A DNA stretch of 64,000 nt from Gemmobacter fulvus (lineage in GTDB: Bacteria; Pseudomonadota; Alphaproteobacteria; Rhodobacterales; Rhodobacteraceae): NCBI RefSeq assembly GCF_018798885.1, contig NZ_CP076361.1:1587501-1651500 (forward strand). Direction: 5' to 3'. Numbering within the stretch: position 1 is the stretch's first letter; the number at the start of each line of letters is the position of its first letter. The notes under the pieces were generated by a model. The model searched no databases, was not told where the DNA came from, and saw only the letters and a program-made list of their open reading frames with translations. This document shows positions 48,988 to 49,301 of the stretch, piece by piece. The translations under genes were made by a program, and so were the position numbers.

Positions 48988-49041
48988 AAACTTTTGACAA
49001 ACACAAAATCTGTGTCAGGCTCACCTTATCGGCAACACATT

Positions 49042-49057
49042 GAAAGGAGGTGATCCA
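49042..49057 (+). promoter_or_regulatory. extended Shine-Dalgarno, perfect complement of the 16S rRNA tail
   Basis: GAAAGGAGGTGATCCA is complementary over all 16 bases to the 16S rRNA 3' end of Rhodobacteraceae (TGGATCACCTCCTTTC). It ends immediately before a GTG codon; the GGAGG core is 7 bases from that codon, the normal spacing. No other gene in the window has more than about 6-8 matching bases. Confidence 0.85.
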
Positions 49058-49114
49058 GTGTCTAGAGTGATATTGGAGAGAGGTGTCGGGACAGTCGGAG
49101 GGAGTGGTTCCTAA
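49058..49114 (+). CDS. 18-codon leader-type reading frame with rare codons
   Basis: GTG start to TAA encodes MSRVILERGVGTVGGSGS. It directly follows the 16-base anti-16S complement, so initiation should be very strong. The first codons (TCT, AGA, GTG, ATA, TTG, GAG, AGA) are rare in this GC-rich genome, unlike every neighbouring gene. The stop codon is the first part of a 7-base-pair hairpin. The peptide matches no family I know. It could be a leader peptide, a ribosome-loading site, or part of a small RNA that is not translated. Whether it is a gene in its own right is uncertain. Confidence 0.5.
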   Translation: MSRVILERGVGTVGGSGS

Positions 49115-49128
49115 GGGCAAACCCTTAG
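49111..49128 (+). other. stable hairpin overlapping the leader stop codon
   Basis: CTAAGGG (49111-49117) and CCCTTAG (49122-49128) pair perfectly around a CAAA loop. The TAA stop at 49112-49114 is inside the stem. GTTCCTA (49107-49113) could instead pair with TAGGAAC (49175-49181), a mutually exclusive fold. Confidence 0.6.
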
Positions 49129-49185
49129 AAAACAAGACTTTTGATTGGGCTTGAAACCTAACTGGCCCATCTCCTAGGAACTCGG

Positions 49186-49214
49186 AAAGGGTCGCCGAAC
49201 ACCGGCGGCCCTTT
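49186..49214 (+). terminator. intrinsic terminator of the leader/small RNA transcript
   Basis: AAAGGG (49186-49191) pairs with CCCTTT (49209-49214), with an inner GCCG/CGGC stem and AACAC loop, followed by CTCGTAT. It would end a transcript of roughly 170-200 bases starting near 49020, upstream of arfB. Confidence 0.65.
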
Positions 49215-49234
49215 CTCGTATCAGCGTGCCAATG

Positions 49235-49272: not shown

Positions 49273-49301
49273 TTATAAACGACCCATCAGGGCGTTTATA
49301 A
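49273..49301. repeat. 9-base inverted repeat ahead of arfB
   Basis: TTATAAACG (49273-49281) and CGTTTATAA (49293-49301) are perfect inverted repeats with an 11-base spacer, flanked on both outer sides by ACCG or CGGT-like bases. It could be an operator or a weak hairpin in the arfB leader. Confidence 0.5.

Follow-up and report, generated by a model that had tools for sequence, protein, structure and literature searches.

A presumed small RNA gene of Rhodobacteraceae with an extended Shine-Dalgarno sequence, a predicted imitation of the 16S rRNA tail and an open reading frame of apparently unselected peptide

What would a sequence complementary to the whole 3′ tail of 16S rRNA be doing ahead of a reading frame of only 18 codons? 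The question is raised by a locus of Gemmobacter fulvus, analysed here within a window of 64,000 nucleotides (the whole stretch of DNA considered, to which all coordinates refer; the features described lie on the + strand). The reading that we favour, with a probability of about 45%, is that of a closed small RNA that free 30S subunits would open, in which selection would bear on translation or ribosome binding, not on the peptide, and which would respond to ribosomes or titrate them.

Positions 49042-49058 read GAAAGGAGGTGATCCAG, 17 nt forming the exact complement of the 3′ terminus of the 16S rRNA encoded in this genome (stretch CTGGATCACCTCCTTTC), the final base being the G of a GTG start codon. 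An earlier note on this DNA had claimed 16 complementary bases; the match proved real and one base longer. With up to one mismatch allowed, its first 15 bases (GAAAGGAGGTGATCC) occur at two sites genome-wide, this element and one 16S gene. A chance match or a 16S fragment was rejected, since the shared part is the tail complement only, recurs in many genomes and has a single genomic site besides a 16S gene. The GTG at 49058 starts an 18-codon frame (V/M-SRVILERGVGTVGGSGS) ending with a TAA at 49112-49114, with the sequence and coordinates previously described. The rarity attributed to three of its codons, TCT, AGA and ATA, agrees with their frequencies of 2.5, 1.3 and 4.8 per thousand in the 37 long ORFs of the window; ACA and AGT are rare there too, at 3.0 and 2.1, and TTG reaches 9.3. 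Both purine-rich, Shine-Dalgarno-like stretches that had been pointed out, GGAGAGAGG and GGAGGGAG, are present in the window as well.

The whole looks like an independent gene some 190 nt long, equipped with a promoter and a terminator of its own and presumably encoding a small RNA (49029-49216). This extent follows the promoter position, a terminator-like hairpin and a match of 183.8 bits to a covariance model, R1, the window being among that model's own sequences. A −35 box (TTGACA, 48994-48999) lies 49 bases ahead of the motif AAAGG, and its position recurs in the copies described below: 83 of 236 copies have a TTGAC between 36 and 65 nt ahead of AAAGG, compared with 5.5 (sd 2.6) in shuffled upstream sequences, and 75 of 84 occurrences were located 48-51 nt upstream. 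The presumed −10 region (AGGCTC, 49017-49022), placed by its spacing from the −35 box alone, is a poor match, and the promoter is absent from the list of a simple consensus scan because no TATAAT-like box follows TTGACA. Judging from the same spacing, transcription is expected to start near 49029-49031. At the 3′ end, the computed fold contains a terminator-like hairpin of 13 pairs (49185-49197 with 49203-49215) with a short T-rich end reaching 49216. A simple terminator scan, with a criterion of five T in eight bases, listed none at the element. A terminator-like hairpin leading into a T-run about 170 bases past AAAGG was nevertheless detected in 165 of 182 copies versus 37.6 in shuffled downstream sequences, and in 153 versus 2.4 under a stricter rule, the shuffle controls used here and elsewhere ignoring kinship among the copies.

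Model R1, built from an alignment (A1) of 52 Rhodobacteraceae-type copies, matched 139 of 149 Rhodobacteraceae genomes at E ≤ 0.01, a count that includes at least one false match since L252, the best match of one genome, lacks the element. As 117 of these matches fell below 1e-20, the element is present in at least 117 of the 149 genomes. Forty stretches were fetched without any sequence pattern, and 36 of them hold the element, the other four being L252 and three weak second matches (L260, L262 and L264). The first 11 bases of the Shine-Dalgarno sequence, GAAAGGAGGTG (49042-49052), are its near-invariant part, found in 34 of the 36 element-bearing stretches and one base off in the remaining two; beyond them, the other bases of the 16S complement and the distance to the start codon vary. 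No second copy was found in the G. fulvus genome, where R1 at E ≤ 1 gave 12 matches, the other eleven scoring at most 25.5 bits; among those listed, the extra matches mostly covered the terminator part only, and the best one lacked the ribosome-binding block.

The stretch GAAAGGAGGTGATCCAGTG with up to one mismatch was found in 34 of 61 genomes, the genome of origin included, and an exact 20-mer occurred in at least 119 stretches of species genomes. Its carriers, among the matches listed, comprise Rhodobacteraceae, Bradyrhizobium, Methylobacterium, Microvirga, Bosea, Ancylobacter, Devosia, Brevundimonas, Phenylobacterium, Falsiroseomonas and others, plus two gammaproteobacterial sequences. In a draw of 249 genomes across the phylum, with up to one mismatch, 22 matched, all Alphaproteobacteria, and none of the 182 genomes outside that class did. 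A pattern search with a gap of N{2,5} found 4 of 192, which is not a prevalence figure since this gap misses the commonest spacing (6). The conservation in relatives on which the earlier note had made its reading depend was thus recovered by the family search and the covariance model: the element is kept within the family and is widespread in Alphaproteobacteria.

Several isolated cases emerged from these searches. In the two gammaproteobacterial sequences (L076, SAR92 cluster, and L102, Cellvibrionales), the exact 20-mer is soon followed by a hairpin and a T-run; they have the 20-mer in common with the element and not the remainder, and are possibly unrelated shorter RNAs of the same design. 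In L142, the frame behind the same 20-base block (VSRPADARVNPVFKAMNRPL...) is about 100 codons long and therefore presumably an ordinary gene, whose product resembles a conjugation protein (VirB3/TrbD-like). The exact 20-mer was also found on five viral contigs (L152-L156), where the peptides belong to the Bradyrhizobium, Methylobacterium and Brevundimonas types, so these copies may be host flanks of proviruses. On plasmids, the 191 bases of the window element gave no match (blastn, E 0.01). Three genomes of one family (L258, L265 and L266) have 18-codon copies starting MSHG, and one of them also carries an MSHC-type copy (L257).

To characterize the frame, copies were gathered by AAAGGAGGTG followed by an NTG 12-16 nt further on, provided that no less than 75 nt of upstream and 200 nt of downstream sequence was available, which gave 264 copies, 238 of them distinct. 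The Shine-Dalgarno sequence and the start codon are given by this construction because copies were chosen by those two, while the statistics of the frame are not. Removing L076 and L142, whose frames exceed 40 codons, left 236 copies, 113 of which come from the exact 20-mer scan. No stop occurred in codons 2-14 of any of the 238 copies in frame, whereas a stop interrupts 106 and 90 copies in the other two frames, and an open frame of 14-33 codons was found in 236 of 238 versus 74 and 77. The start was GTG in 192 of the 236 copies, ATG in 41 and TTG in three, and codon 2 was TCN in 229. In the 36 pattern-free stretches the spacer varies and is at times 1-2 nt shorter; the start codon, usually the serine codon and often the length of 18 codons persist. 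The stop codon itself was mixed in 57 frames (TAG 27, TAA 17 and TGA 13), a set open by construction in which the stop mixture alone is informative.

This constancy does not extend to the amino acids. In the 18-codon set, which was picked by length and so has a stop at codon 19 and no internal stops by construction, 38 nearest pairs showed 34 synonymous changes versus 33.1 expected without selection, and 30 pairs of other lengths showed 35 versus 36.3. The true frame was no better than the control frames, as their synonymous counts show (37 versus 30.5 and 35 versus 31.9 for 18 codons; 34 versus 32.6 and 41 versus 29.6 for the other lengths). Changes were evenly distributed over codon positions, and purifying selection on amino acids was detected neither by the nearest-pair counts in both sets nor by coarser counts, which are not phylogenetic and concern bases many of which may also be constrained by RNA pairing. 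The peptides differ wholly between groups (MSR..LERGVGT, MSHCH..TWILAS or MSYTKRCHLAGIAR, for example). A conserved or stalling peptide, the latter suggested by the earlier note, was rejected on this absence of codon-level signal. In Bradyrhizobium-type copies (such as L055 and L060), the frame has mostly 14 codons and KRCHLA occurs in 13 of 13; these codons form the masking segment considered below, and the constancy may thus reflect RNA pairing.

The frame therefore appears to be kept open by selection and the peptide apparently not, being translated probably constituting the point. A fast-evolving peptide, or one of which only the length matters, would yield the same codon result, and a small mRNA for a rapidly changing functional peptide of 14-33 residues, its ribosome-binding site masked by the RNA itself for tight control, would account for the retained frame, the Met-Ser beginning and the mostly exact 18 codons of Rhodobacteraceae-type copies. 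We consider it unlikely, however, given that synonymous changes are not in excess in either set and that the groups have no peptide sequence in common.

Comparison with Rfam revealed a match of RF01867 (CC2171, a Caulobacter sRNA) to positions 49034-49211, with 31.8 bits and an E-value of 2.9e-4, below the curated cut-off of 75. CC2171 reportedly belongs to a group of 27 Caulobacter RNAs from 2008 and goes back to Landt 2008. In 289 Alphaproteobacteria genomes RF01867 matched 69 at E ≤ 0.01, nine of them over the cut-off, and its scores graded from 90.5 bits to below the level of the window element. Matches were also obtained in two of 14 named control genomes, those of Caulobacter vibrioides and of Deinobacterium chartae, and one of the two exceeded the cut-off; the match in D. 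chartae, far outside Alphaproteobacteria, was unexpected and may be terminator-only or a product of chance. In the alignment, the 5′ block of the family and an RF01867-like 3′ terminator hairpin are present in the window element, and the positions of the long-range stem CAUUGUC/GACAAUG are deleted, the window reading TAGAGTG. As the 5′ part and the general plan are common to both, but the cut-off is failed and the long-range stem absent, the window element is, on sequence grounds, a Rhodobacteraceae variant and distant relative of RF01867, not a member. The earlier note had accepted that a known Rfam family might explain the conservation: such a relative does exist, yet the match remains under its cut-off.

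The literature consulted yielded no published function for the window element or for CC2171, the latter RNA being found in tables only. RF01867 figures in a table of improved structures in Rfam 15, another table assigns to it an sRNA predicted in Mesorhizobium huakuii, and a 2018 paper states, in the part available, that CrfA alone of the 27 Caulobacter RNAs from 2008 had been characterised further. The listing of CC2171 as an sRNA by Rfam and the Mesorhizobium candidate would fit an ordinary base-pairing sRNA, in which the only tasks of the frame would be to protect the RNA or to influence its decay by attracting ribosomes. This is quite unlikely in our view, the two aligned groups sharing little beyond the ribosome-binding region, the masking segment and the terminator.

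The masking segment was identified in the predicted fold of the window element, which is 5.2 sd better than shuffles (z −5.2) and pairs AGGAGGUG (49045-49052) with CAUCUCCU (49168-49175). The latter belongs to a segment (49160-49176) resembling the 16S tail, CTGG..CA.CTCCT, and hence an anti-Shine-Dalgarno sequence, also recognised in the copies. Of 101 distinct downstream sequences of 18-codon copies, mostly Rhodobacteraceae-type with a few from another family, 92 contain past the stop a partner able to pair with GGAGGTG, versus 21.4 (sd 3.7) in shuffles; for the commonest forms of this partner, the distance from the start is 105-111 bases in 67 of 86 cases. Two further hairpins are predicted. 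The first, of nine pairs (49054-49062 with 49069-49077), holds the start codon; across 102 copies, 89.9% of its cells are paired versus 37-46% when it is slid by 1-3 nt, with no excess of compensatory double changes (9 cells versus 4-12 when slid). The second, CTAAGGG/CCCTTAG (49111-49128), covers the stop codon and has similar counterparts in other Rhodobacteraceae-type folds.

When 56 copies were aligned carefully, their consensus fold contained the masking helix. On A1 it was not recovered, GGU pairing with the ACY of a conserved CTAACYG just ahead, and RNAalifold on a mixed Rhizobiales-type alignment returned little besides the terminator. Among copies with unusual spacers, the own partner beat the average foreign one in only 12 of 17 swaps, a predicted advantage that is suggestive at most. 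Accessibility differed between groups in the 157 of 182 copies with a recognised terminator. The predicted unpaired fraction of AGGAGG was 0.06 versus 0.37 in controls for 58 Rhodobacteraceae-type copies, 0.45 versus 0.30, and thus freer, for 55 Rhizobiales-type (MSHC) copies, equal (0.38 versus 0.37) for 31 other copies and slightly less free (0.26 versus 0.34) for 13 Bradyrhizobium-type copies. Complementary segments also occur in the other groups, often in frame (CCTGGATC.TCGCCTC in Rhizobiales-type and GCTGGGATCGCC in Bradyrhizobium-type copies), where the mean z of the fold ranges from −1.5 to −2.75. Since the prediction for Rhizobiales-type copies leaves AGGAGG more accessible than in controls, masking is proposed as the resting state in Rhodobacteraceae only, as the folding models suggest.

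Opening the Shine-Dalgarno region would cost about 10.4 kcal/mol on average in the 102 18-codon copies, according to predictions for naked RNA covering the 215 of 236 copies with a recognised terminator. Extended pairing with the 16S tail of the window's genome would repay 27.4 kcal/mol, leaving a net −17.0 (−11.8 when the start region has to be opened as well), compared with 9.1 kcal/mol and a net −2.6 for a six-base Shine-Dalgarno sequence in the same copies. The extended pairing far outweighs the cost of opening, and the long match therefore looks like the price of letting the 30S subunit open a closed RNA unaided.

A strong ribosome-binding block could also serve a non-coding sponge, whose GGAGG segment would titrate anti-Shine-Dalgarno small RNAs as CrfA titrates SisA-D (alpha-R8) in Caulobacter (PMC12559287, in the part available); the existence of such RNAs and of a sponge in that bacterium makes the idea conceivable. 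A sponge, however, would need neither the largely conserved 16S complement nor the well-placed start, the serine codon, the open frame and the stop, and CrfA, the sponge of that paper, is distinguished from CC2171 here by its name. We regard this reading as very unlikely.

The surroundings of the element were examined in 60 Rhodobacteraceae-type loci. Upstream in the window lies a queuosine-precursor transporter gene (TIGR00697, 48364-48987), a relative of which stands upstream in 33 of the 60 loci. Downstream, the gene called arfB by the earlier note was confirmed as a true ArfB (NF006718). In two of the 60 loci the next gene lies outside the available sequence, and no widely recurring neighbour was found in other groups. 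A leader or attenuator of the downstream gene, here arfB, exerting feedback on ribosome rescue as previously proposed, is scarcely credible although arfB comes next in the window and in 22 of the 60 loci: 18 loci continue with a gene of the opposite strand and 18 with a different same-strand gene, none of the downstream genes is common to many groups, and the terminator-like hairpin ends the element before arfB. The arfB leader was rejected on these counts; judged from gene order, a conserved downstream gene in the same transcript, as expected of a leader, was not found. Between the terminator and arfB, an inverted repeat was noticed by eye, TTATAAACG / CGTTTATAA (49273-49301, arms 11 bases apart), which might be an operator for arfB.

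Returning to the small RNA opened by free 30S subunits, its anatomy, its conservation and an open frame without peptide selection can be read from the sequences compared. The Shine-Dalgarno sequence would be able to pair with the entire single-stranded 16S tail, and the same RNA bears what appears to be an imitation of that tail some 105-111 nt past the start. The RNA would be closed until a free 30S subunit invades it through the extended pairing, and the ribosome would then translate a throw-away frame, opening the RNA and holding it open. With selection on the frame and not on the peptide, the useful event would be ribosome binding or translation itself. Its outcome could be the holding or counting of free 30S subunits, or the release of the 16S-like segment and the 3′ part to act in trans.

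A more specific form of this reading goes further, and we hold it to be doubtful as a whole: a widespread gauge of free 30S subunits, in which the whole-tail Shine-Dalgarno sequence is set against a built-in copy of the tail, the neutral frame acts as the moving part and the output is the 16S-like segment once released. As the Shine-Dalgarno sequence would compete with the built-in copy, the state of the RNA would report the number of free small subunits. To our knowledge, how bacteria sense spare ribosome capacity is poorly understood. An RNA encoded in most genomes of a family, with ribosome binding and an open frame seemingly under selection and the peptide not, would offer a direct handle on that sensing, and an Rfam family without a function found in print would acquire a testable role.

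Compared with known systems, RF01867 has the 5′ block CAAC..GAAAGGAGGUGAUCCAGUGUCU, a similar length, a terminator hairpin and scores grading down to the window element in common with it; the difference lies in the CAUUGUC/GACAAUG stem, which the window element lacks, its Shine-Dalgarno sequence and start codon being predicted to be paired instead. Sinorhizobium rnTrpL, a dual-function sRNA (PMC10117765, as far as the consulted part describes it), resembles the window element as a small RNA with a tiny translated frame, the peptide peTrpL having 14 residues. It is, however, the trp attenuator: it lies upstream of trpE, is leaderless and encodes a leader peptide that has a function, whereas the window element combines a strong Shine-Dalgarno sequence with a variable downstream gene and a peptide that shows no trace of selection. 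The extended Shine-Dalgarno sites reported in Staphylococcus aureus (PMC13009471, partial text) also pair with the 16S tail past the usual core, including at a GUG start, but they are located on ordinary mRNAs, while the window element would be an RNA of its own, with an apparently unselected peptide and an imitation of the 16S tail. Finally, SisA-D and CrfA resemble it in placing Shine-Dalgarno-like and anti-Shine-Dalgarno sequences in small RNAs, as the consulted part of PMC12559287 describes; the window element differs from them in appearing to unite both partners in a single RNA, beside a start codon and a reading frame.
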